Positions 1 to 41,565 of a DNA stretch of 43,549 nucleotides are shown here, one piece after another. Both the position numbers and the translations under genes were made by a program. This DNA is from a virus. The notes beneath the pieces are model-generated. The model did not search any database, had not been told where the DNA came from, and was given only the letters and a program-made list of their open reading frames with translations. The stretch covers positions 1 through 43,549 of IMG/VR virus record IMGVR_UViG_3300046000_007648; one strand, 5' to 3'. Position 1 is the stretch's first letter. Each line of letters begins with the position of its first letter.

Positions 1-302
1 AATTTTATTATATGAGCGGCCATCAAACTCTTTCCAGAGCCTTCGAGGCCAGTCAATTCGGTTATTCTGCCGACTGGGATTCCCGCATTTGGTCGATTTG
101 CGATGGACAAATCCACTAAATCGTTTCCGGTTGTAATCCAATCCGTCACTTGCGAGGCGTCTTCATCCTCGTCCAAGAAAAATGCTACCTTTTCTCCTTG
201 GGCTTTGTTAATTGCCTCGGCTAAGACTTCACCAAGATTATCTTGTGAATCCATTTCCACCTCGACGCGTTTCTTCTTTTCAAGTTTTTCTAATTTTTCC
301 AT
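1..302 (-). CDS. uvsX: UvsX/RecA-like recombinase (3' end outside window)
   Basis: Only the first 100 codons are present; the gene runs off the left edge. The visible part has a charged Lys/Glu-rich N-terminus (residues 1-25), then TTGNDLVDLSIANRPNAGIP (about 58-77), the typical lead-in of phage RecA/UvsX cores, and a Walker A loop GLEGSGKS at 85-92. In T4 the homologue forms a filament on single-stranded DNA and drives recombination-dependent replication and repair together with gp32, whose gene lies just upstream on the same strand. The start is the ATG at 302-300; no good Shine-Dalgarno sequence precedes it, but an 11-bp hairpin lies 23 bases upstream. Family assignment is firm; exact orthology cannot be settled without the rest. 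Confidence 0.9.
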   Translation of the reverse strand, partial: MEKLEKLEKKKRVEVEMDSQDNLGEVLAEAINKAQGEKVAFFLDEDEDASQVTDWITTGNDLVDLSIANRPNAGIPVGRITELTGLEGSGKSLMAAHIIK

Positions 303-383: not shown

Positions 384-402
384 TTCAACTTTAAGAGTTG
401 AA
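384..402 (-). other. Small hairpin spanning the gp32 stop codon
   Basis: TTCAACT and AGTTGAA form a perfect 7-bp stem with a 5-base loop that contains the TAA stop of the gp32 gene. There is no U-run after it. It may slow decay of the gp32 message or simply reflect the acidic C-terminal codons. Confidence 0.3.
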
Positions 403-1206
403 CATGTCATCGAACTCTTGCTTTGCCGCAGTTGGCGATATCGGCGATTTCACCGATGCCTTTGTTGTGGAACTCACAATCACTGGTGCTTCACTATCGT
501 CAACGATTGTTGGAATGGGAGCTTCTTCTCCGTCCGGATTTCCTTCGACGGAATTCACCCACGTATCCATGACTGCGGTCAATTCATCATACGACAGTTC
601 TGGAAATAGTTCCACAATGTTTCGTTGATGCTTAACCTTCTCAAACAGAACCTTATCCGTCGATGCAAATGCCGGAGTTGTATTTCCCCTCGGACGAACA
701 GTTGTTTCCGGGAAGCTCTTACCAGTCTCGGCAGCAGTCTTAAATTCTACAAGAATATCGCGACCAGTATTCAAATCGGTAATATCTCCGAAGTCGGAGT
801 CATTCATGATATCAAGTACGGATTGATATACAGTCTTGCCCATTCCCCAGAATTTTACACCTTCATTTTCTTGTCCGCGCACTAGAATCGGCGCGTATGT
901 TCTTGGTTTTGGGTCCAGCGCCCTAGCTTTGGTCCACTCTTCTTTGCTTGAACTATTCTTCTTAAGTTTAGTTGCAAACTCCACAATCGGGTCCGGTCGA
1001 CCAAACGACGTAGGGCTCAAATATGTCTTACCGTTTAAGTTGTAGTGAAACAATAATTCAACGAATGGAAATTCCGGACTGTGCGTATAAGGAAGAAATC
1101 TCACCGTGGTTTTTCCCGGAGTTGGCTTCCAGATGCTTGTCGATTTGTTCGAATTTGCTTTCATGCTCTCCAAGCGAGCTTTAATTTTTGATATGTCTAA
1201 TGCCAT
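391..1206 (-). CDS. gp32: gp32-like single-stranded DNA-binding protein
   Basis: The 271-residue protein matches the T4 gp32 plan: a short basic N-terminal segment (about 1-30), an OB-fold core opening with IWKPTPGKTTVRFLP (about 26-40) and containing SFGRPDPIVEF and the aromatic-rich KFWGMGKTVYQSVLD, then a Pro/Ser-rich linker and an acidic tail ending EFDDMFNS. Such proteins coat single-stranded DNA in replication, recombination and repair and recruit partners through the acidic tail. Unlike T4 gp32 there is no cysteine at all, so the zinc-binding loop of the T4 core is missing. T4 gp32 is 301 residues, so the length is close. Two sigma-70-like promoters precede the gene and uvsX follows. 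Confidence 0.88.
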   Translation of the reverse strand: MALDISKIKARLESMKANSNKSTSIWKPTPGKTTVRFLPYTHSPEFPFVELLFHYNLNGKTYLSPTSFGRPDPIVEFATKLKKNSSSKEEWTKARALDPKPRTYAPILVRGQENEGVKFWGMGKTVYQSVLDIMNDSDFGDITDLNTGRDILVEFKTAAETGKSFPETTVRPRGNTTPAFASTDKVLFEKVKHQRNIVELFPELSYDELTAVMDTWVNSVEGNPDGEEAPIPTIVDDSEAPVIVSSTTKASVKSPISPTAAKQEFDDMFNS

Positions 1207-1394: not shown

Positions 1395-1418
1395 AAAAAA
1401 TCTCGTTTATAGTCGAGA
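1395..1418 (-). terminator. Intrinsic terminator candidate
   Basis: TCTCG and CGAGA form a 5-bp stem with an 8-base loop that holds the stop codon of the upstream gene, followed on the minus strand by six U residues. The stem is short, so efficiency is uncertain, but it separates this gene from the independent gp32 promoters. Confidence 0.45.
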
Positions 1419-1802
1419 TATTGTTAACAATTTTGTGGGGGTGACGCGGAATTTTCCTCCGCTTGTGGATATGAAAGAGTTTCTGTATTGTTCCCAGTCT
1501 ACTTGATATTCTCGACCAGACATTCCGCCGGTCTCTGATCTAATCAATTCGTTGAGTGCATTGATAGAATATATTACGTTATATTCTTTTTTACGGTGCA
1601 CTGACATCGTCCTTGGATAAAACTCAATTTTTCCACGTTTTGCATTGAACGTTAAAAATATGTCATTAAAATCTAATGTGCTCTGTAATACATACACGGC
1701 ATTTTCGGGTATATCGTAATATTGAACTAACGCACGAACCTCCTGCAAATATGTTTGATATGTAGCAAACGTACACAACAACTGTGTGTCATATTCACGC
1801 AT
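1407..1802 (-). CDS. Hypothetical protein (131 aa)
   Basis: I do not recognise this family. The protein is soluble-looking, without signal peptide or membrane segment; residues 20-70 read as alternating strands and helices and the C-terminus is basic. Its ATG overlaps the TAA of the upstream gene (TAATG), so translation is probably coupled to the 285-residue protein before it. A hairpin terminator covers its stop codon and an independently promoted gp32 gene follows. The position between tail/baseplate and replication genes gives no clear role. Confidence 0.7.
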   Translation of the reverse strand: MREYDTQLLCTFATYQTYLQEVRALVQYYDIPENAVYVLQSTLDFNDIFLTFNAKRGKIEFYPRTMSVHRKKEYNVIYSINALNELIRSETGGMSGREYQVDWEQYRNSFISTSGGKFRVTPTKLLTISRL

Positions 1803-2659
1803 TATGCACCATTCTTTTGAGCAAATATTTTAAATTCTTCCCGGTCCACGTTCTTTATTGGAACAATTTCACCGGTCATTCCGACGACCGCCGAAGCTTC
1901 TCCCATAGGATTTCTCCATTCTCCGTACGGAACAGAGGTCCAACCTTTTTGTTGGGCGAATTTGGCCGACAGTGCAACATAATCTGGGGCGGAAGGTGTT
2001 GGGATTGTCCCGGCACCAACGGCGGAAGTTGCGCCCGGAGTCGCGCCAGATGCCCCACCAGATGCCCCGCCGTTGCCTGTGGGAGCGTTTTTGGTTACAT
2101 CCGGTGGGATTGTATCAGAAACTCCCGAATTTGCCCCAGAACTCGCTGGTTTTTGTTCCGGTTTCACGACCGCTGGTTTATCAGATGGAGCGGACCCTAT
2201 ATTTGCCGGTTGTTTTTCTGCTGCCGGTTCTTTTACTGGGGTTGTTGGTGGGGTGGCTCCGCCTTGCGGGGCGGTTGGCTCTGTTGCGCTTGGTCCTTGT
2301 TGGTTGGTGCGCTTTTGTTTGCCTCGTTTCTTATAATAAAGATTCATTCCGCCCTGTCCGTGAGTTGGGTCCGACTCAAAATGAGTTCCTTTCTGAATTG
2401 CTGCCTTTTTATATTCAATCGACGGAAATGTTACCAACCAGCCTTCTTTGTTAAATGCTTGGCGTTCCGGAAACTTTCCCTCGTTTTTTAGCATCATCGC
2501 TTCAACGCCCTCCATGACAGTTAATTCATCCATTCCTCTGTCAATCATACATTCCATCAATACCACAATGTGGACTGGGTCGTATATGTCTAATATGCCG
2601 GAGTTAATTCTATCGTCTATTCCTGCCTCGGTTATAATATTGTCTATAAAAGTATTCAC
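1802..2659 (-). CDS. Hypothetical protein with long Pro/Ala/Gly-rich linker
   Basis: The 285-residue protein has three parts. An N-terminal helical domain (1-110, beginning NTFIDNIITEAGIDDRINSG) comes first. A low-complexity linker of about 100 residues rich in Pro, Ala, Gly, Thr and Ser follows (about 120-225). A short C-terminal domain (about 228-285, including QQKGWTSVPYGEWRNPMG) ends it. The start is a GTG at 2659-2657; no in-frame ATG lies near it. The stop overlaps the next start. Two domains on a flexible tether suggest a scaffolding or adaptor role, but I do not recognise the family and assign no function. Confidence 0.7.
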   Translation of the reverse strand: MNTFIDNIITEAGIDDRINSGILDIYDPVHIVVLMECMIDRGMDELTVMEGVEAMMLKNEGKFPERQAFNKEGWLVTFPSIEYKKAAIQKGTHFESDPTHGQGGMNLYYKKRGKQKRTNQQGPSATEPTAPQGGATPPTTPVKEPAAEKQPANIGSAPSDKPAVVKPEQKPASSGANSGVSDTIPPDVTKNAPTGNGGASGGASGATPGATSAVGAGTIPTPSAPDYVALSAKFAQQKGWTSVPYGEWRNPMGEASAVVGMTGEIVPIKNVDREEFKIFAQKNGA

Positions 2660-2673
2660 GGGTTTCTCTATAA

Positions 2674-3657
2674 TTATATAAACACTTTGAGTTTTATACC
2701 TTTTGACAGACGATTGAACACAAAATAATTAAAAAACTCCTCTTTTTTTACATAAAAAGCGTCTTTTCCGAGCTTGTTTACTACCACAATACCTTCGGTA
2801 TAATGAATCATGGGCAATAACTCGGCAGTAATCGTTGTACAAGATATCGCCTTGGTGAAATATGAAATCTGTTTCAGGGTTGGAATAGTTATATGTTCAA
2901 GTGTGTCCGTCACTCGACTTAAAGTCACTTTCCTCGGTTTATTGCTTTCCATTTCTCGTAGAACTTCCGGACCGTTTTCTATCTTAGCTATGATAACCTT
3001 ACCATCTATGTGCAGTTTTGCGTAATTTATTGGAGCATCAACCTCGACTTGATTTAGTCGTTTTCCTACAAGTTCTAGCCCAGAGAATACGGTTGTTCCC
3101 ATTTCTTCCTCGTTTAAATTATCTATAAAATCACAAACATAATCTTTTTCATCCTGACTTGCGGGTCTTCCCTCAAATTTGTGGTCGTCCGTTATAACAC
3201 TCTTTAGGTAATTTCTGGCATTTTCGTTTTTCTCTAAAATGTGAGTGAGAGCACGCAGCGCCTTTGTGAACATCAAATTTTTGTATCCGTGGATTGACGC
3301 GTTCTCTAATTTTATATTTGACCCATCATCCAGAGCCTTTACATCGACAGTTTTGTTTCCGGGTAAAATTAAATCTCCTATATTACTTCCCCCGGAAATG
3401 CAACCTCGGAGCAAAAATACAAACGGTATTTCACCGAAATGCAAATTCTTTTTCCTCGAAAGTGAATTTATATAATCAATAATCTCGGAATATTTTGCGT
3501 TGTTGTATTCCGCGACCGCCGCTTCCACCGATTCGCAACTATTATACAATTCAGCAAAGCTTGGATTTTTCTTCAATATTTCAATTAACCTCGGTATAAC
3601 TTCAATGTCAATTTTCTTAAAGTTGTTTCCGACCTCCGAGATTATGTCATTTACCAT
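2674..3657 (-). CDS. Possible PD-(D/E)XK nuclease-like protein
   Basis: The protein has about 327 residues from the ATG at 3657; a TTG at 3672 overlapping the upstream TGA would add five. The segment GGSNIGDLILPGNKTVDVKA (about 90-109) fits the D-x(n)-(D/E)-x-K signature of PD-(D/E)XK nucleases: GD on one strand, then VDVKA on the next. The rest is mixed helix and strand with no membrane segment. It lies directly after the family A polymerase-like gene and before gp32/uvsX, so a role in DNA processing is plausible. The short motif is the only support, and a non-catalytic structural protein remains possible. Confidence 0.5.
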   Translation of the reverse strand: MVNDIISEVGNNFKKIDIEVIPRLIEILKKNPSFAELYNSCESVEAAVAEYNNAKYSEIIDYINSLSRKKNLHFGEIPFVFLLRGCISGGSNIGDLILPGNKTVDVKALDDGSNIKLENASIHGYKNLMFTKALRALTHILEKNENARNYLKSVITDDHKFEGRPASQDEKDYVCDFIDNLNEEEMGTTVFSGLELVGKRLNQVEVDAPINYAKLHIDGKVIIAKIENGPEVLREMESNKPRKVTLSRVTDTLEHITIPTLKQISYFTKAISCTTITAELLPMIHYTEGIVVVNKLGKDAFYVKKEEFFNYFVFNRLSKGIKLKVFI

Positions 3658-3668
3658 ATTATTAAATA

Positions 3669-5036
3669 TCAAGAAATTTTGATATGCTGCATATCCTTGT
3701 AAGATTTTCCAACATAGACCTTAACCGGAAATTTTTCTTGTTCCATAATATTCTTAATTTTACGTATTGTGTCTATTTTATCTTCCTTGTGGACATCGAA
3801 CAAAATGCTGTCGTATGTATATAATATCGCCTTGGTCTTTTTTGATTCTAAATTATCCAATAATTCTCCCAGAACATCTACTGCCATTTCCGTCTCGAAT
3901 GCTTGTAATATATAGTTGAATAACTTATTGGGAGTTGCGTCTTCAATATGGCACGCCCTAATCTCGCGTCGGTACTTTGGGGTTTCTATATACCCATTCT
4001 CCTCGAAAAATTTCCAGCGGTGGTTTATATATTCTTGAATTTTTGCAAATAGCGGGATGTGCAGAAATTTTTCACTTAGTCCACCATATATCTGGGTGAA
4101 TGTAAATCCTTTGGCTACTGCAATATCTTCTTCGTTGATTTCCTCTTTGTTGAAATAATACCTCGCCAAGTATTCGTAGGGATTCACCGAAACATCCATC
4201 GGGAAATTGACAAGGTGCGCAATCAATCTTGGATGGAATGCGCTATAATCCATCATTATTAATGTGCCCTCATTTCCATATCTGGATACGAAACATTCTC
4301 GGCTGTTATCGGATTTATTTAGTGCCGCATAATTGATTCCACCAAACCGGTTGCTTGGTCTTCCGGTCGATGTCAACAAATTATATTGAGAATATATTAT
4401 TCCATTTTTTATATGTTTTTCTTGCTCGTTTCCAAATTCGTCCACGAAATCGTCGGTAACATACAATCCATTGGACTCCAACCTAGCAAAACAGTTGGTC
4501 ATTTTATTATTGACGAACATGAGTCCCGGTTCGTCTACCATAGAAATATTCAATGGAAGGGCTCGTTTAACTTTGTCAGAAAAAAGACGTGCGTGTTTGA
4601 ATAACGGAATACACTTATTTGTATCAGGTAAATTCCGAAATATTGAATTTATGAAACGGTGAGAATTAGTCGTAGCATCGTCATCATCTTCGGTCCCGGT
4701 GCTAAGATATCTCAATAGTCGTATATCTAGTAGACCGCAATCTTCTCCAAACAGTTGCGTTACGCTTTTTTTGTCGAACGTATATTTCCTTTGGATTGAT
4801 GTGGAAAGTGCTCGGCGAATGATATCGAATATCCCCGGCAAAGGAGAAGACTCGTTGTGCTCTATTGGAACACACCACTCCGTGTCCGATGACAGAAAAT
4901 AGAAAAACAACAAACTTGCACGATTATTCAGATAATGCTTCTGCCCATCTACACACACTACGTCCAATACCAATTGGTCGGTACTTATGTTGGCTGTTAG
5001 CAAGGATAAATCAAATGTACTTTCTACAATAGTCAC
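3669..5036 (-). CDS. Reduced family A DNA polymerase-like protein
   Basis: The 455-residue protein carries the palm/fingers landmarks of family A DNA polymerases in order: TSTGRPSNRFGGINYA (222-237); motif A MDYSAFHPRLIAHL (262-275, catalytic D263); motif B KGFTFTQIYGG (309-319, with the K, F and YG spacing of E. coli Pol I K758/F762/Y766); motif C YTYDSILFDV (406-415, catalytic D409). The usual VHDE of motif C is YDS here, and the arginine four residues before the motif B lysine is absent. The N-terminal 150 residues are short and only faintly like a 3'-5' exonuclease domain. T7 polymerase is 704 residues, so this is a reduced form. The start is GTG. It sits between baseplate and recombination genes. 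Confidence 0.75.
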   Translation of the reverse strand: MTIVESTFDLSLLTANISTDQLVLDVVCVDGQKHYLNNRASLLFFYFLSSDTEWCVPIEHNESSPLPGIFDIIRRALSTSIQRKYTFDKKSVTQLFGEDCGLLDIRLLRYLSTGTEDDDDATTNSHRFINSIFRNLPDTNKCIPLFKHARLFSDKVKRALPLNISMVDEPGLMFVNNKMTNCFARLESNGLYVTDDFVDEFGNEQEKHIKNGIIYSQYNLLTSTGRPSNRFGGINYAALNKSDNSRECFVSRYGNEGTLIMMDYSAFHPRLIAHLVNFPMDVSVNPYEYLARYYFNKEEINEEDIAVAKGFTFTQIYGGLSEKFLHIPLFAKIQEYINHRWKFFEENGYIETPKYRREIRACHIEDATPNKLFNYILQAFETEMAVDVLGELLDNLESKKTKAILYTYDSILFDVHKEDKIDTIRKIKNIMEQEKFPVKVYVGKSYKDMQHIKIS

Positions 5037-5076: not shown

Positions 5077-5466
5077 TTAGTATCCGCGCCAATATTCCAA
5101 CGGATTCTGCAATAACCTAGACAAGTCAAGTTCTTGTTCTTTTTTTATTCGGTCAATCTCGAATAAATTTTGTTGCGATACTCCTATAATATTAACCATG
5201 GAGCTAGACCTGATCGTATCTTTAATTCCCGTAATTCTCCAATTCAAATACACAATTTTGTACAATATTGTATTGATGCTTTTTGCGTCTTCGGGGCGAA
5301 TTTCCATCAATATATTCTCGTTAACTTTTTTTATAAAAACCCGCGTGAAATATCCATTATTATAATCACTATCCTTTGGATGTGGTTTATTTGTCGAGGG
5401 GGATATGCCAGTCAATTTCCCGGAGCTTCCTCCATATTCCGCAGCTATAGCATCATTGTATTTCAT
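5077..5466 (-). CDS. Putative small baseplate/virion protein (129 aa)
   Basis: The central part (NNGYFTRVFIKKVNENILMEI, then about 25 residues to LYKIVYLNWRITG) and the C-terminal NPLEYWRGY resemble small proteins encoded beside baseplate genes in T4-like phages, but I cannot name the family. It is soluble and basic, with no cysteine. Its ATG overlaps the stop of the large baseplate gene before it by one base, so the two are probably made together, and a structural or assembly role is inferred from this. A GTG-started polymerase-like gene follows after 40 bases. Confidence 0.65.
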   Translation of the reverse strand: MKYNDAIAAEYGGSSGKLTGISPSTNKPHPKDSDYNNGYFTRVFIKKVNENILMEIRPEDAKSINTILYKIVYLNWRITGIKDTIRSSSMVNIIGVSQQNLFEIDRIKKEQELDLSRLLQNPLEYWRGY

Positions 5467-7892
5467 TATTTAAAAATTGTCAACGGTCTGGCTTGTGCCG
5501 AAATTTCCGTAATCCATATCTTGTTTTCTATTCTTTGGGATACATTGGAAACTTGCCATACTGCCCGGTCATATCCATATGAACTTGGCACGTGGTCCAA
5601 CGTGAATTGGGCCAGATACCGCACTCCACCAATTCCCAGTAGTTCCATTTTAAACGTAGTCCCCGGCATAGGACTGTTGTTGGTATATATGGATTTTTTG
5701 TTTTTAATATCCAACAGTATGGATTTCATGAATGTTGAATCTAATTCGCACAGTATATATTGCTTAACAGCATCTCCCTTGCCCGTCGTGTAAGTATAAA
5801 AATTGCTATTATCTGCCAATAGTCTCTTATATTTTGATTGTGTTGAATTTGGGTTATTTTGTTCGCTGTTTGCCGGAGTGATTTTGGTGTATACTGCTCG
5901 GTCGAACATTCTATCGCCGCGTGATAATTTACTATACACTATATTCTTTGGGTCATAGTTGGCAGTACCATATCCGGTGGGTAGAGTTTTTTTGCCGCTG
6001 CTGCTCTGCATTATCATTTGATTTGACATTTCAGGAGCCATTTTTATTTCCAAATTTGCGGATTTCATATATGCTGAACTTACTGCGCCAACTGAAATTC
6101 TTTGTAAAGTCTCCGCCAATTCTTTCGTAGTTATAGAAGTAAAATTTACATCGATTACGGAGTACTTAGTATTATCTACGGTATGTGGGATTAATTTCAA
6201 TTGTGATATATCGCACACCGAATTTGAAATGTGCTGCAACAAATCTTCTATGAGAGTTCGAACATTGTCATTCTTCGAGACGAGCGATTTAAATAATTCG
6301 ACGGATACATAAATATCTTCCAAATACCCCCAATATCCAGCGTCAACTTTGCCCGGTCCGATATTTGGGACATAATCGGAATATACCGGAAATGACCTAC
6401 CCTCCGGATTAATTATCTCATGTAAATTATCATAAGTGTCATCGAATTTATTCTCCTCTATGAAAGCCTTTATTGTTGGAAACAGCGTATAGTAAGCGCC
6501 TTCTGGCTTCCCTCCTTGTGTGCCAGTTCCCCCGATAGACTGTATACTCCTCAGTGTTGCCGCGTCTCTCGGTCCCTGTACTTCTCGAATTGTCCCCACG
6601 CCACCAATTCCTCCCATATTAATCGGGGAAATCGCGATCTTTCTGGCGGATTCCTCGGTAACAAATCTTGGCGCAATTTGGTTTGGTATCAATATGTTTT
6701 TACTGGTGGATTTTAATGCCGGGTGTGCACACATTACCACTCCGGAAATATCGAGAGAGTTTCCCTTGACATTGGTATCCTTATCGTCTGGGTCAAGAAA
6801 TTGTATTTCAAAAAACCGATTTATTATATCAACGATTAAATCCATTCTAAACCACACTTTAGAATCGGCGTTGGCGGAATCAAACCATCCGGCGTCTCCG
6901 CTTTTAAATATTCTTCCACGGGTAGATACTTTGATATCATTGGAAACGTCGCGAATTTGTCTGGCCGTGGTTACTCCACCAATCCCGCCCATATTAACAA
7001 CAGAAAATTCGGGCACGGCGGTCTTCTTATTCTTTATGCCCAAATTATCTATGTCTTCATACACAAATTCCACAAAGTCTTTCAACTTTATGGAGCCGCT
7101 GCTATTGGTAGGGTTGGTCGCCGCCGAATTTTTTCCGTGGTATGATTGTCCACTGATGAATCGGTTTGCATTTGTTATGCTGGTGAAACAATTATATCCA
7201 CCGGCTGCGTCAAGAGTATATCCATAGTCATTTATAAGCCCCATAGCCAAATCGTAATTTCCCTTGGATTGTTTAATCCATTTATAAGTGTAGTCAGGGT
7301 CTCCACTATATATTTTATACAACCAATCAATATCTTGCAAATCTACCAAAGATTCATTACTATAATTATTCCATCCCCATTCGACCAATAAAGTTATGTT
7401 CGGGGTCAGAAAGTACGGAGTCAAATACTCCAATTGCTCTAACGAGTAACATTTCCATGTTATTTTAGTTGTTCTACACAGCGCATTGAAACTACTGTTT
7501 GTTCCGCCGGAAAACTCGGTCTCTACCGAAACTATACTTGGGGGTGGTCTATGCGGAAAATCATTGCCAGTATATTCTCCTACCCCGCCGACCGCCAAAA
7601 TTTCGTGTGGATTGCCAACCGCGTCCACGCCTATAGTTATGCGGCGGTTTTTAAATCCATAGCTAGCGTCGAATCCATTTGTTCCGCCCATTACAAATCC
7701 CTCTAGATTCGGTGCCGCGCCACTTATTCCATTGGAAAATACTCTAGTCCACGCAGTTCTTGGTCCACTGTATGGCTTACCGTCGGTTAAGTTTGGATTG
7801 AAATCATATTCACCCGCTCTGTTATTCAGTTCAGTTTTAATCCATTCGTCTAATGGGTGCAGCCCCCATGGAAATATTTTAGTGTCGGCCAT
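5466..7892 (-). CDS. Large baseplate/tail structural protein (808 aa)
   Basis: This long soluble protein begins MADTKIFPWGLHPLDEWIK and contains LTPNITLLVEWGWNNYSNES (about 177-196), a stretch I associate with virion structural proteins of T4-like phages. The motif NMGGIGGV occurs twice, with related Gly-Gly-Val segments elsewhere, suggesting internal repeats or loop elements. The C-terminal third (VDVNFTSITTKELAETLQ; MFDRAVYTKITP) is beta-rich. It follows the LysM-like gp53-type gene by 14 bases, within the baseplate gene run. A hub or wedge component is the best inference; the exact T4 counterpart is not clear. Confidence 0.65.
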   Translation of the reverse strand: MADTKIFPWGLHPLDEWIKTELNNRAGEYDFNPNLTDGKPYSGPRTAWTRVFSNGISGAAPNLEGFVMGGTNGFDASYGFKNRRITIGVDAVGNPHEILAVGGVGEYTGNDFPHRPPPSIVSVETEFSGGTNSSFNALCRTTKITWKCYSLEQLEYLTPYFLTPNITLLVEWGWNNYSNESLVDLQDIDWLYKIYSGDPDYTYKWIKQSKGNYDLAMGLINDYGYTLDAAGGYNCFTSITNANRFISGQSYHGKNSAATNPTNSSGSIKLKDFVEFVYEDIDNLGIKNKKTAVPEFSVVNMGGIGGVTTARQIRDVSNDIKVSTRGRIFKSGDAGWFDSANADSKVWFRMDLIVDIINRFFEIQFLDPDDKDTNVKGNSLDISGVVMCAHPALKSTSKNILIPNQIAPRFVTEESARKIAISPINMGGIGGVGTIREVQGPRDAATLRSIQSIGGTGTQGGKPEGAYYTLFPTIKAFIEENKFDDTYDNLHEIINPEGRSFPVYSDYVPNIGPGKVDAGYWGYLEDIYVSVELFKSLVSKNDNVRTLIEDLLQHISNSVCDISQLKLIPHTVDNTKYSVIDVNFTSITTKELAETLQRISVGAVSSAYMKSANLEIKMAPEMSNQMIMQSSSGKKTLPTGYGTANYDPKNIVYSKLSRGDRMFDRAVYTKITPANSEQNNPNSTQSKYKRLLADNSNFYTYTTGKGDAVKQYILCELDSTFMKSILLDIKNKKSIYTNNSPMPGTTFKMELLGIGGVRYLAQFTLDHVPSSYGYDRAVWQVSNVSQRIENKIWITEISAQARPLTIFK

Positions 7893-29228: not shown

Positions 29229-30224
29229 ATGAACCAAGCAACAAGAAATTATAATTTATCTGCATTTAAAGGTAGCAAAAATGTAATGCGACAGAATAAA
29301 AATTCTCCATACAAAGGAATTCCGCCCGATAAAGCCCAAATATTGTATGAACTAGAAAAACGCCGAAAGCAAGCAAATGTTCTTTCGAGTGGATTTATAG
29401 GAGAAAAAAATTTAATATATTACTGTGCATTTGGTGCGGACTATATTTCTTTGCTAGAAATGTCTTTAAAGTCGATTTCTTCGGCCACACCATTTGACGT
29501 ATTAATTATAACAGATTCACCGACGAAGAAAATGATATGTTCGTTGGAGTGTATCTCACAGCGTAATATTTTATTTCATGAAGTGGAATCCCCGATTGAC
29601 GGAGTGGAAGCGAGTATGAAAAAATTGGAGATATTTGATTTTAAAAATATAAATGAGTACAAGAGAATATTATTTTTAGACGCCGATATAATTTGCGTGG
29701 GAGAAATCTCAAAATTGTTCTTAGAAGAACCGGATAACTTTTTTCACGCAAAGCGGTCCCCCATATTAAATGCAAACTCCCCCCAGCTGATTGATGTGTA
29801 TAAGTCTTGCACAATAACACACAGTTTAGCATTTTTTAGCGCCACAGATTTAAAATTGTTAAAAACTAATGACCTAGAAATATTTAACGCTGGTCAGTTT
29901 TTTTTCTACAATACTCTATCTATGCAAAATCATTTTGAAAATATACGATGGCTGGCGAACGTTTGGCCATCTATATATTTTTTTGAGCAATCTTTTATGA
30001 ATCATTATTTTGTATATGGGGAATTGGTTAAATACGACCTACTCGACGATATTGTTGCTATAACAACCGTAAAACCCGCCGTATCGTGTGCCAAAGACTT
30101 GTATGAAAAACAGCACATTGACGACACTGCATTGATTCATTTTGCGGGGACGCCCACGGACGGAAAAAATAAATATATTTTTATTTTAAATTACTGCAAA
30201 AAACACAATATAGTATGCCATTAA
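29229..30224 (+). CDS. Glycosyltransferase, GT8-like
   Basis: The 331-residue protein has a Lys/Asn-rich N-terminal extension (about 1-55), then NLIYYCAFGADYISLLEMSL as the nucleotide-sugar entry region, and KRILFLDADIICVGEIS with the metal-binding DxD (D151-A-D153) typical of family 8 transferases. FNAGQFFFYN and IHFAGTPTDGKNKY match acceptor-site and C-terminal histidine regions. It should transfer a sugar from a nucleotide donor; the acceptor is unknown. The stop overlaps the sulfotransferase start, so the two are made together. The pair is AT-rich and opposite to the tail genes around it, a sign of acquisition. Confidence 0.8.
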   Translation: MNQATRNYNLSAFKGSKNVMRQNKNSPYKGIPPDKAQILYELEKRRKQANVLSSGFIGEKNLIYYCAFGADYISLLEMSLKSISSATPFDVLIITDSPTKKMICSLECISQRNILFHEVESPIDGVEASMKKLEIFDFKNINEYKRILFLDADIICVGEISKLFLEEPDNFFHAKRSPILNANSPQLIDVYKSCTITHSLAFFSATDLKLLKTNDLEIFNAGQFFFYNTLSMQNHFENIRWLANVWPSIYFFEQSFMNHYFVYGELVKYDLLDDIVAITTVKPAVSCAKDLYEKQHIDDTALIHFAGTPTDGKNKYIFILNYCKKHNIVCH

Positions 30225-30874
30225 ATAAAATCTACAACATACTCCACGTTCATATACCAAAATGCGCCGGAACGTCGATTGAAAATATACTAGATATCAG
30301 TACGGCGGAGCATTTTTATACAACCGAAAAAAATAATTCGTTTTTACAAATAACTGGTATTGATGCGTTTAGTGACATAGAATATAGAATGTGCATGTCA
30401 AAAAGTATGCAACACTATAGTCTATTGGAATTAAAAAAAATTTTAGGTGCGGAAGAGTTTAGTAAATACAGAAAAATAACAGTCGTTAGAAATCCATATG
30501 ATAGACTGGTGTCTGCATATCACTTTTCTGTGTTTGGATACAAACATAATGTCCCATTCTCTGAATTTGTTTTTAATTCTCTGTCAATGAATCCAGCCAC
30601 GAGAAATTGGCTATATGACGGCCACCTAGAAACCCAATTTTCTTATTTGGCAAACGAGCGCGGAAATTTATTGGATATTGATAAAATCTACAAGTTTGAA
30701 AATATGGACGAATGTATTTCCGATTTACTAATACTCACGGGAAAAAATAAATTTCCGCACATTTTAAAATCGACAGACAAAATGGATTTTTTATCATATT
30801 ATACTCCAGAAATAAAAAAAAATGTCTATAATTTTTATAAAATAGATTTTGATTCTTTCGGTTATAACTATTAA
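30215..30874 (+). CDS. Sulfotransferase family protein
   Basis: The 219-residue protein has both PAPS-binding signatures: 5'-phosphosulfate loop VHIPKCAGTSI (12-22, K16) and 3'-phosphate motif VVRNPYDRLVSAYHF (90-104, R92 and S100). This is the Sulfotransfer_2-type arrangement, which moves sulfate from PAPS to a hydroxyl or amino group, usually of a carbohydrate. Coupled translation with the glycosyltransferase suggests that it sulfates the sugar placed by that enzyme or a related glycan. PAPS must come from the host. No signal peptide is present, so it acts in the cytoplasm. The last four bases overlap the end of the opposing glycine-rich gene. Confidence 0.85.
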   Translation: MPLNKIYNILHVHIPKCAGTSIENILDISTAEHFYTTEKNNSFLQITGIDAFSDIEYRMCMSKSMQHYSLLELKKILGAEEFSKYRKITVVRNPYDRLVSAYHFSVFGYKHNVPFSEFVFNSLSMNPATRNWLYDGHLETQFSYLANERGNLLDIDKIYKFENMDECISDLLILTGKNKFPHILKSTDKMDFLSYYTPEIKKNVYNFYKIDFDSFGYNY

Positions 30875-38006: not shown

Positions 38007-38017
38007 TATATATATAT
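38007..38017 (-). promoter_or_regulatory. TATATATATAT late promoter candidate
   Basis: It lies 27 bases before the 149-residue protein gene and touches the stop codon of the collagen-like fibre gene. It is one of the recurrent TATATATA elements before structural genes. Support is positional only. Confidence 0.3.
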
Positions 38018-41000
38018 CAAATCATTCTGTTTGGATATGCTATAAATAGTGCTAAAACTTGTTGAGATGTTATACCAGTAGTTCCTCCACCGCCTCCACC
38101 ACCATTCAAAGCATATGAAGCAGTAATAGAATATGAAGATGTACCAAGAAGACCAAGAGAAGCAGTTACGCTTCCAAATGTGACATCGTTTGAACTGTCG
38201 AACGCTGTGCCACCACCATTACTTAATTGAGCACTGCTTGAAACTGTTCCGGCAGGAATTGTCCCGGATGTTCCACTTGACCCGTTTGTCCCGGAAGTTC
38301 CGGATGAACCGTTTGTGCCACTTGAACCAGAAGTTCCCGATGAGCCGTTCGTGCCGCTTGTGCCATTCGTTCCACTTGTTCCGTTTGTGCCGGACGTTCC
38401 CGACGACCCATTGGTGCCGCTCGTGCCATTGGTACCAGACGTTCCACTCGAACCGTTTGTCCCGGAAGTTCCGGATGAACCGTTTGTGCCACTTGAACCA
38501 GAAGTTCCACTCGAACCGTTGGTACCGCTTGTTCCGTTTGTGCCAGACGTTCCCGACGACCCATTGGTGCCGCTCGTGCCATTGGTACCGGACGTTCCAC
38601 TCGAACCGTTGGTACCGCTTGTACCACTTGACCCATTGGTACCAGATGTTCCACTTGACCCGTTTGTTCCAGATGTACCGGACGAACCATTCGTGCCGCT
38701 TGTTCCGTTGGTACCCGAGGTTCCGGACGACCCGTTTGTCCCAGACGTTCCACTCGAACCGTTGGTACCGCTTGTTCCATTTGTGCCAGACGTTCCCGAC
38801 GACCCATTGGTGCCGCTCGTGCCATTGGTACCAGACGTTCCACTCGAACCGTTGGTACCGCTTGTACCACTTGACCCATTGGTACCAGAAGTTCCATTCG
38901 TACCAGACGTTCCACTCGAACCGTTGGTACCGCTTGTTCCATTTGTGCCAGACGTTCCCGACGACCCATTGGTGCCGCTCGTGCCATTGGTACCAGACGT
39001 TCCACTCGAACCGTTGGTACCGCTTGTTCCATTTGTGCCAGACGTTCCCGACGACCCATTCGTACCAGACGTTCCACTCGAACCGTTGGTGCCATTCGTT
39101 CCGCTTGTGCCATTCGTTCCGCTTGTGCCATTGGTACCCGACGTTCCGCTTGTGCCATTGGTACCGCTACCACCACCACCATTCAAAGCATAACTTGCAG
39201 TTAGTGCATATGAAGATGATCCATGTGTATATGCTGCATCAACAACGTTTATATTTGGACCAAATTGATATGTGCTGGTTGTTCTGCCGCCCATCAATGT
39301 TACATTTTGTGATTGGGCCGCGTCGATTGAATATGTACTTCCTGTGGAATAGATATGGCAATCTTGAAGTGTAAGAGTTTTGTTGCTTGTTCCTGAACCG
39401 AAATATATTACAGGACTTGATCCAGTTGAAATAAGCCTCCCAATGTACGAATTTCTAAAAATGACATTGGACGCATTGCTTCCCGTTATTAACACGGGAC
39501 TTGAATCGTATTGAGAAACTGTATCGAAGTTAAACATACCTTCCAGCGCAACTGTTCCATTTATATCAAGCCACATTCCATATGGTTGATTGTTATTTGT
39601 CTGAACGATGCTATAATCTCTAGGAAGTTTTAAGTATATATTTCCACCACCATTTTTTGCAATAATTGGTGTAACAACGCTTGAATTTATTGCATTTTCT
39701 ATGGACAACGATATATTGGCACCAGCAGGATCAGCAACAATCATAGTAAACATGTCAGAATCTACAAGTTGGCTTATGTTTATTACCGTTCTTCCACCAC
39801 TTGACACAGTACTTTTAACTATACCATTTGAACTGAAAAACGCCTGTTCTATATTGACATTGCAATAATTTGCAAAACCAATTCCTTTCACGAGCGGAGC
39901 ACCTAGGTATGAAACTCCAGTCAAGCCTTTATTCAAAACAAAAGTATGGGCATTGATTGTTGCTCCTATGCTATAGTTTGATCCTTCAATATCTATTGCA
40001 CATGCACTACTGTTGTAATTAGTACTGTCCATACCGGCAATAATCTTATATACATCAATATTGATATAAGATCCGCCAGAAATAGTTGATCCGTTGACTC
40101 CGTTGGAATACATTCCTATCAAAGTTGCTCTTGAACTTGCCGGAGCGTAGTTAATTGTTGCGTCAATCGTACCGGGACCAGATACTTTTATTTGAATTAG
40201 TGTACTGGCACTTGAGCCAGTAAGATAAAACAATGGAACTGCACTAGAAGGATTTAGTTTTAATGTTGATCCTTCTGATAGATAATAGTTCAACGACTTA
40301 ATCAATCCCGAGGCTGTTGCTACACCATTTAAAAGATATATAGATTGACTCACTGCACCAGCACTTTCAGCGGCAGCAATAGATCTGTATGTATACTGTA
40401 AACTTCCCGATTTGGCCGTTGAGTCATTACCATTTACTGGATCAACAAATAGCGTGTCTGTTATTCTTATATTTGTATCAAATGCAAGTGATGCTGTTGT
40501 AGCATATGAAGAACTTAATGCTTGAATAGCATAACTGCTCGTACCAAACAAAGATGCTGTGACACCACCATTAGCCAAAATACTTCCCGTGATTGTAAAT
40601 ACATTATCTGAATAAATCAAATTTGCTGATGCGGTGGCAGCATTAACCGAGCCGTCAGACAATATTACTCGTCCTATGCTTGGGCTATTGATTGTTGTAA
40701 ATCCTGCACCAGATGTTCCACTTGAACCGTTTGTGCCAGATGTTCCACTTGAACCGTTTGTGCCAGAGGTTCCACTTGTTCCATTCGTACCCGACGTTCC
40801 ACTTGAACCATTGGTGCCGCTCGTTCCGTTGGTGCCGGACGTGCCACTTGAACCGTTTGTGCCGGACGTGCCACTTGAACCGTTTGTGCCGGACGTGCCA
40901 CTTGAACCGTTTGTGCCGGACGTGCCACTTGAACCGTTTGTGCCGGACGTGCCACTTGAACCGTTTGTGCCAGAGGTTCCGCTTGTTCCATTCGTACCCG

Positions 41001-41565
41001 ACGTTCCACTTGAACCATTGGTGCCGCTCGTTCCGTTGGTGCCGGACGTGCCGCTCGAACCGTTTGTACCCGACGTACCGTTGGTGCCGGACGTGCCGCT
41101 CGAACCGTTTGTACCCGACGTACCGTTGGTGCCGGACGTGCCACTTGAACCGTTTGTACCCGACGTACCGTTTGTGCCACTTGTGCCGCTCGAACCGTTT
41201 GTACCCGACGTACCGTTGGTGCCGGACGTGCCACTTGAACCATTGGTGCCGCTCGTTCCGTTGGTGCCGGAAGTTCCATTCGTACCAGATGTTCCACTCG
41301 AACCGTTGGTACCACTTGTCCCATTGGTACCCGAAGTTCCATTCGTACCAGATGTTCCACTCGACCCGTTTGTTCCGGAAGTACCGGACGACCCGTTGGT
41401 GCCGCTTGTTCCATTGGTACCCGAAGTTCCGCTTGTGCCACTATAACTCAACGCATAACTTGCAGTAATTGAATATGACGCAGTTCCACTCAATGAACCT
41501 GTGATCGAAGCTATCTCTGCCTCGCTTCCACTTATTATATTTGTAAATACTGTGTAATTAGACAT
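38017..41565 (-). CDS. Tail fibre with two collagen-like repeat tracts (1182 aa)
   Basis: The N-terminus (SNYTVFTNIISGSEAEIASI, then TASYSITASYALS) leads into a Gly-X-Y tract built from GTS, GTN and GSS (about 41-287). A beta-rich middle domain follows (about 288-795), containing FVDPVNGNDSTAKSGSLQYT and YRSIAAAESAGA, like the start of a beta-helix. A second Gly-X-Y tract (about 798-1101) comes next, then TASYALNGGGGGG and a short end VLALFIAYPNRMI. Gly at every third position implies a trimeric collagen-like shaft; proline is almost absent, so stability must come from elsewhere. The C-terminal 30 residues are short for a receptor-binding tip. The 149-residue gene follows. Confidence 0.85.
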   Translation of the reverse strand: MSNYTVFTNIISGSEAEIASITGSLSGTASYSITASYALSYSGTSGTSGTNGTSGTNGSSGTSGTNGSSGTSGTNGTSGTNGTSGTNGSSGTSGTNGTSGTNGTSGTNGSSGTSGTNGTSGTNGSSGTSGTNGTSGTNGSSGTSGTNGTSGTNGSSGTSGTNGTSGTNGSSGTSGTNGTSGTNGSSGTSGTNGTSGTSGTNGSSGTSGTNGSSGTSGTNGSSGTSGTNGSSGTSGTNGSSGTSGTNGTSGTNGSSGTSGTNGTSGTSGTNGSSGTSGTNGSSGTSGAGFTTINSPSIGRVILSDGSVNAATASANLIYSDNVFTITGSILANGGVTASLFGTSSYAIQALSSSYATTASLAFDTNIRITDTLFVDPVNGNDSTAKSGSLQYTYRSIAAAESAGAVSQSIYLLNGVATASGLIKSLNYYLSEGSTLKLNPSSAVPLFYLTGSSASTLIQIKVSGPGTIDATINYAPASSRATLIGMYSNGVNGSTISGGSYINIDVYKIIAGMDSTNYNSSACAIDIEGSNYSIGATINAHTFVLNKGLTGVSYLGAPLVKGIGFANYCNVNIEQAFFSSNGIVKSTVSSGGRTVINISQLVDSDMFTMIVADPAGANISLSIENAINSSVVTPIIAKNGGGNIYLKLPRDYSIVQTNNNQPYGMWLDINGTVALEGMFNFDTVSQYDSSPVLITGSNASNVIFRNSYIGRLISTGSSPVIYFGSGTSNKTLTLQDCHIYSTGSTYSIDAAQSQNVTLMGGRTTSTYQFGPNINVVDAAYTHGSSSYALTASYALNGGGGSGTNGTSGTSGTNGTSGTNGTSGTNGTNGSSGTSGTNGSSGTSGTNGTSGTNGSSGTSGTNGTSGTNGSSGTSGTNGTSGTNGSSGTSGTNGTSGTNGSSGTSGTNGSSGTSGTNGTSGTNGSSGTSGTNGTSGTNGSSGTSGTNGSSGTSGTNGTSGTNGSSGTSGTNGSSGTSGTNGSSGTSGTNGSSGTSGTNGTSGTNGSSGTSGTNGTSGTNGSSGTSGSSGTNGSSGTSGTNGSSGTSGTNGTSGTNGSSGTSGTNGTSGTNGTSGTNGSSGTSGSSGTNGSSGTSGTNGSSGTSGTIPAGTVSSSAQLSNGGGTAFDSSNDVTFGSVTASLGLLGTSSYSITASYALNGGGGGGGTTGITSQQVLALFIAYPNRMI
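38261..39169. repeat. Collagen-like tandem repeat tract, C-terminal copy
   Basis: About 900 bases of 9-base units coding Gly-X-Y triplets. Units are grouped into larger blocks: one stretch of 125 bases at 38741-38865 recurs exactly at 38903-39027. Shorter partial copies occur at about 38505 and 39000. This points to recent unequal crossing-over or slippage. Confidence 0.9.
40707..41442. repeat. Collagen-like tandem repeat tract, N-terminal copy
   Basis: About 735 bases of 9-base Gly-X-Y units. It includes five exact 27-base copies at 40832-40966 (coding GSSGTSGTN) and a 45-base unit present about three times near 41030-41170. Synonymous codon choices differ between blocks, showing repeated local amplification. 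Confidence 0.9.

Follow-up and report, generated by a model that had tools for sequence, protein, structure and literature searches.

The window considered here is the whole stretch of 43,549 nucleotides of the IMG/VR virus record IMGVR_UViG_3300046000_007648. On its minus strand, positions 3669..5036 carry a divPolA1-type family A DNA polymerase gene that starts with GTG and encodes 455 aa, the length given by the initial annotation and found correct on reading the ORF; the frame is intact, with no internal stop. The identity of the product is supported by Pfam (DNA_pol_A, PF00476, E=6e-11, 42.3 bits for a gathering score of 34.3), by PHROG 17 DNA polymerase (E=4.5e-20), by the predicted fold and by homology to a protein of Flavobacterium phage immuto. 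At a cut-off of E<=0.1, PF00476 also matches 50 of 69 relatives of the protein. A profile scan of IMG/VR retrieved at least 571 confirmed homologous stretches, and two clusters of close relatives display dN/dS values of 0.02-0.08, i.e., strong purifying selection. These two results, together with the invariant motif residues detailed below, mean that the gene is not a chance reading frame: positions 3669-5036 are a real, selected family A polymerase gene.

The gene had been described as lying next to baseplate genes. This upstream order is indeed fixed in relatives, and the polymerase also heads a replication/recombination module. Across about 90 loci, the shared order runs from the tape measure gene through baseplate-type genes, p129, the polymerase, optional genes, p131 and gp32 to uvsX, a 5'-3' exonuclease, DnaB and ribonucleotide reductase. 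The neighbour counts are limited to loci with enough flanking sequence. Immediately upstream, p129 (5077..5466, minus strand), the last gene of the tail/baseplate block, is found in 69/74 loci; it is preceded by the gene of an 808-aa putative baseplate protein (5466..7892, minus strand; 54/55 loci), whose role is deduced from its location following the tape measure gene. On the other side, between the polymerase and gp32, lies p131 (1407..1802, minus strand), encoding a 131-aa orphan protein and present in 46/47 loci, and then the gene of a gp32-type single-strand DNA binding protein (391..1206, minus strand; Pfam gp32 5.3e-12; PHROG 1192), present in 43/45. In the loci counted, p129, p131 and gp32 all share the strand of the polymerase. 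The uvsX/RecA recombinase gene (3..302, minus strand) is cut by the window end, and a complete copy (43463-44704; Pfam RecA 7e-48) is carried by contig G003, which is 76.5 kb long and, being 99.8% identical to the window over 43.5 kb, belongs to the same species.

Two optional neighbours separate the polymerase from p131 in the window. The first encodes a 332-aa protein (2674..3672, minus strand), PD-(D/E)XK-like by motif only (GE...GDLIL...VDVK), and the second a 285-aa putative protein (1802..2659, minus strand), with relatives in 24 and 16 loci, respectively. The former had been suggested as a supplier of nuclease activity. As it has no Pfam match and is not a constant partner, occurring in only 24 of about 90 loci, it is unlikely to provide a required nuclease, and it was rejected as an obligate nuclease partner. 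In many relatives (L111, L113, L123, L124, L130, L328, L330, L331), large genes of about 700 to 1591 aa occupy the slot between the polymerase and p131 and replace the 332/285-aa pair. Another insertion, limited to a single locus among those compared, is an R2K-type ATP-grasp ligase gene (Pfam R2K_2 2e-39; L146:5771-6610, corresponding to G003 45771-46610) between the 5'-3' exonuclease and DnaB. Elsewhere in the window, a putative tail fibre gene of 1182 aa (38017-41565, minus strand) contains internal repeats of ~400-715 bases with 75-82% identity, around 38258-39152 and 40718-41386, and an opposite-strand ORF of 219 aa (30215-30874, plus strand), begins with MPLNKIYNILHVHIPKCAGTS, which by eye resembles a sulfotransferase-type motif.

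An AlphaFold2 model of the polymerase, computed from an alignment of 69 relatives, reached a pLDDT of 94.3 and a pTM of 0.92. Its best Foldseek match is Klenow (8.5e-20), and VIA-align superimposes it on 6vdd_A with a Z of 27.6 over 414 residues (rmsd 3.7); against Bst Pol I, model residues 1-450 align with residues 301-876 (414-417 residues, Z about 27). The Pol I large-fragment fold is thus predicted to span the whole protein. The initial annotation had made its reading depend on a palm holding both aspartates; by alignment, D263 and D409 fall in the palm motifs of the predicted Pol I fold, in favour of that reading.

The same alignment places an exonuclease-like domain at residues 1 to ~160. 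The assignment of this region (residues 1-160; 4557..5036, minus strand) as an inactivated 3'-5' exonuclease-like domain draws on VIA-align against Bst, sequence alignment and the published family description (PMC11348598). Its catalytic acids are gone, with at most D30 standing near the D355 column in a sequence alignment of uncertain register. Hence, the exonuclease region, previously described as nearly gone, retains its fold without the catalytic acids, and the deleted part is the thumb. Indeed, in the sequence alignment, the spacing from L-E-S-N-G to T-G-R at the deletion site (residues 187-226; 4359..4478, minus strand) is 39 residues, with a family median of 35, whereas the corresponding IERNG-to-TGR spacing is 127 in E. 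coli Pol I and 127-237 across canonical PolAs, so that the thumb subdomain typical of canonical Pol I-type enzymes is lacking. The fingers are also shortened after motif B, the Y766-to-N845 spacing being 57 in the window polymerase versus 79 in E. coli.

All the residue numbers proposed for the motifs agree with the alignment to Klenow. Motif A (D263-YSAF-H268-PRL; 4224..4250, minus strand) and motif C (Y408-D409-S410; 3807..3815, minus strand) keep both catalytic aspartates, D263 and D409 aligning with Klenow D705 and D882. Motif B (residues 305-318; 4083..4124, minus strand) has the K/F/YG spacing already recognized, K309, F313 and Y317-G318 corresponding to K758, F762 and Y766-G767. The replacement of HDE by YDS in motif C (Klenow H881-D882-E883) and the loss of the motif B arginine, Arg754 being replaced by I305, had likewise been correctly read. 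Counted in 88 aligned family proteins, D263 and H268 are each found in 87, the remaining one having a gap, whereas F313, Y317, G318, Y408 and D409 are present in 88/88. Position 410 is Ser in 72/88 and Ala in 16/88, and such replacements of E883 are common among the phage PolAs compared. The equivalents of K758, F762, Y766, Q849 and N845 show no or almost no variation, even among very divergent members.

Three positions of the nucleotide pocket depart from the canonical PolAs. H268 stands in place of the steric-gate Glu710; Arg754 is lost in 82/88 members, usually in favour of Tyr or Ile, and kept in 6/88; His881 of Klenow is replaced by Tyr (Y408) in the family. By comparison, Glu, Arg and His occupy these positions in 13/13 canonical PolAs, whereas the window polymerase has H268, I305 and Y408. 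The invariant change of Glu710 to His and the losses of Arg754 and His881 are additions to the published description of the family. Read from the alignment, an invariant His at the steric gate implies that sugar selection would be altered.

The only annotated phages matching along most of the protein are four immuto records, the Microcystis phage Mel-JY01 and the 484-kb record LR756508. With the divPolA1 of immuto, the window protein shares 29.6% identity over 91% of its length (tblastn, E=3e-45). divPolA1 was described in 14 phages, including immuto, that additionally carry a regular DNA polymerase of family A, B or C; it keeps the catalytic palm, has a truncated thumb and an inactivated exonuclease, is followed by replication genes, and was judged most likely polymerase-active, with the exonuclease lost, and involved in replication (PMC11348598, Virol J 2024). 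The window gene shares the following features: homology to the immuto protein, catalytic palm, truncated thumb, inactivated exonuclease, replication genes downstream and a regular DNA polymerase encoded by G003, of the same species. It is a further member of the divPolA1 family published in 2024, from which it differs in nothing essential. Neither this family, nor the missing thumb, nor the change at the steric gate had been recognized in the initial annotation. In the literature searched, the name divPolA1 appeared only in the describing paper and its preprint, and no biochemistry was found for the family. Beyond that description, the present analysis adds hundreds of environmental members, the p131 companion and the finding that the same genomes encode a DnaG primase. 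T4-related phages from environmental, mostly aquatic sources commonly carry the family.

A tree was computed from 28 family members, 13 canonical or phage PolAs and one divPolA2. A long branch (2.09; support 100/98) separates all 28 members from the other sequences, and the 778-aa full-length PolA of immuto lies in another part of the tree than the divPolA1 clade, for which reason descent from this resident replicase was discarded. A kinship with divPolA2, whose branch is very long, was also dismissed as it has no support in the tree. divPolA2 (PMC11348598; AUR84708) resembles the window protein in being a thumbless accessory PolA of phages with PolB, but it keeps Glu710 and Arg754, carries a different N-terminal globular domain of its own and belongs to another clade, whereas the N-terminal domain of the window protein is exonuclease-like. 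TV-Pols (PMC2579912) are, like the window protein, minimal superfamily A polymerases that lack an active nuclease domain and are carried by mobile elements. However, they retain a two-helix thumb and an RxxxK motif, both lacking in the window polymerase, and are associated with D5 helicases or integrases. With the large fragment of Klenow/Bst Pol I, the protein has in common the overall fold and the palm and fingers motifs, as well as, for Bst Pol I, a dead exonuclease domain; it differs by the deleted thumb, the deletion of about 20-30 fingers residues and the three changed pocket residues.

The initial annotation had taken the protein for a second polymerase, additional to a family B replicase, and the gp43-type enzyme it recommended seeking is encoded by G003, as a family B polymerase of 900 aa in which the exonuclease and polymerase domains are both intact; an AAA clamp-loader-like gene follows two genes later. 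The window polymerase as sole replicase of its species is thereby rejected. Family B polymerases were also found in 12/18 relative virus contigs, most of which are fragments, and in Mel-JY01 and LR756508, whereas immuto has its full-length family A enzyme instead. In LR756508 (260623-266900; L036), the family B matches are split over two frames of 1022 and 625 aa, ~5 kb apart, as if an insertion, intein or intron lay between them. All five large records of relatives (>=129 kb) encode a DnaG primase assigned to the PHROG of T4 gp61, T4 serving as positive control; five fragments of 65-81 kb gave no primase match, an absence made uninformative by their incompleteness. The family B enzyme of G003 and the DnaG of the five large records indicate that the polymerase is accessory and not needed as the only primase.

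The constant companion p131 has, in the window and its relatives, the invariant core HRKK.TNTLYTINALN...W..Y, and its predicted model reaches a pLDDT of 91.6. No useful match was found in Pfam, PHROG or PDB sequences, and nothing significant among PDB folds (best Foldseek E 0.22; VIA Z at most 6.0). The six annotated phage records that p131 matches are precisely those matched by the polymerase over most of its length. In a set of loci centred on p131, the polymerase is present in 55; ten others lack it despite at least 1.3 kb upstream, but all of these have less than 3.5 kb of upstream sequence, and the distance between both genes reaches 4.3 kb in other loci. Among 28 loci centred on gp32, polymerase and p131 are both present in 23, p131 only in four and neither in one. 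No clean loss of either gene was found in these 28 loci, as upstream of all five exceptions there is either little sequence or a very large gene taking most of it. Within one phage group, this co-occurrence may reflect descent rather than interaction.

We consider it probable, with moderate confidence, that the gene encodes a divPolA1-type enzyme acting as an accessory, exonuclease-dead, thumbless family A polymerase alongside the main replicase. As both metal-binding aspartates and K309, F313 and Y317 are kept, it has most likely retained the ability to add nucleotides to a primer. Without thumb and proofreading, its synthesis would be distributive and error-prone, and partners such as gp32, UvsX or p131 would probably hold it on DNA; its substrates may be gp32-coated or made by UvsX. 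Its constant position ahead of p131, gp32, uvsX, the 5'-3' exonuclease and DnaB points to brief synthesis events, either during recombination-dependent replication or in the repair of gaps; gene order is an association, not a function, and the whole phage group may share it by descent. In a UvsX D-loop, the enzyme could extend the 3' end; alternatively, it could fill gaps after the 5'-3' exonuclease has removed primers, like a Pol I split into separate proteins. The exact step may be gap filling, D-loop extension or lesion bypass. Of the roles proposed initially, repair is plausible, as is one in recombination, whereas priming is weakened by the DnaG of the large records.

The losses of Glu710, Arg754 and His881 could mean weak or altered activity, and they feed two of the rival explanations. 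Added to the loss of thumb and proofreading, and to the presence of another full polymerase in most records of sufficient length to judge, they are compatible with a pseudo-polymerase whose catalysis is lost or vestigial and which is kept as a DNA-binding scaffold or gp32/UvsX loader. This is doubtful, since the aspartates and the equivalents of K758, F762, Y766, Q849 and N845, (nearly) invariant in the family, would be superfluous for a pure scaffold. The altered pocket may instead point to a changed substrate, ribonucleotides or another nucleotide, for a primer-making or RNA-extending enzyme comparable to family A-derived RNA polymerases. A missing thumb is also typical of archaeo-eukaryotic-type primases, and a primase role was considered because both thumb and steric gate are missing. 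Moreover, Glu710 is the steric gate of E. coli Pol I against ribonucleotides (PMC13228545), and the E658A variant of Bst Pol I, deprived of the equivalent Glu, admits them (PMC7200780), so that the His found in 87/88 members and the replacements of Arg754 and His881 speak for such a change. Nevertheless, a bulky His may still exclude the 2'-OH, F313 and Y317 of the normal dNTP pocket are kept, the E883 change is common in ordinary phage PolAs, and the DnaG primase of the five large records argues against the need for another primer-making enzyme; the changed substrate is therefore unlikely.

That divPolA1 is the main replicative polymerase and the family B gene an auxiliary is very improbable. 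Its location in a conserved replication block and the switch of the 'regular' polymerase from one family to another among relatives (PMC11348598) are in favour of this, but divPolA1 has neither proofreading nor thumb, whereas the family B enzyme of G003 has both domains intact and a clamp-loader-like gene nearby. A last proposal combines several claims: polymerase and p131 would form a two-part enzyme, with p131 replacing the thumb and the steric-gate His altering sugar preference (e.g., toward ribonucleotides), in synthesis dependent on gp32/UvsX. Taken as a whole, it is improbable.

With the accessory divPolA1-type polymerase, nature provides a way to test how far the Pol I framework can be reduced while still supporting template-directed synthesis, and what role the steric-gate glutamate plays when evolution replaces it. 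Its constant companion p131 is a concrete candidate partner of the polymerase.
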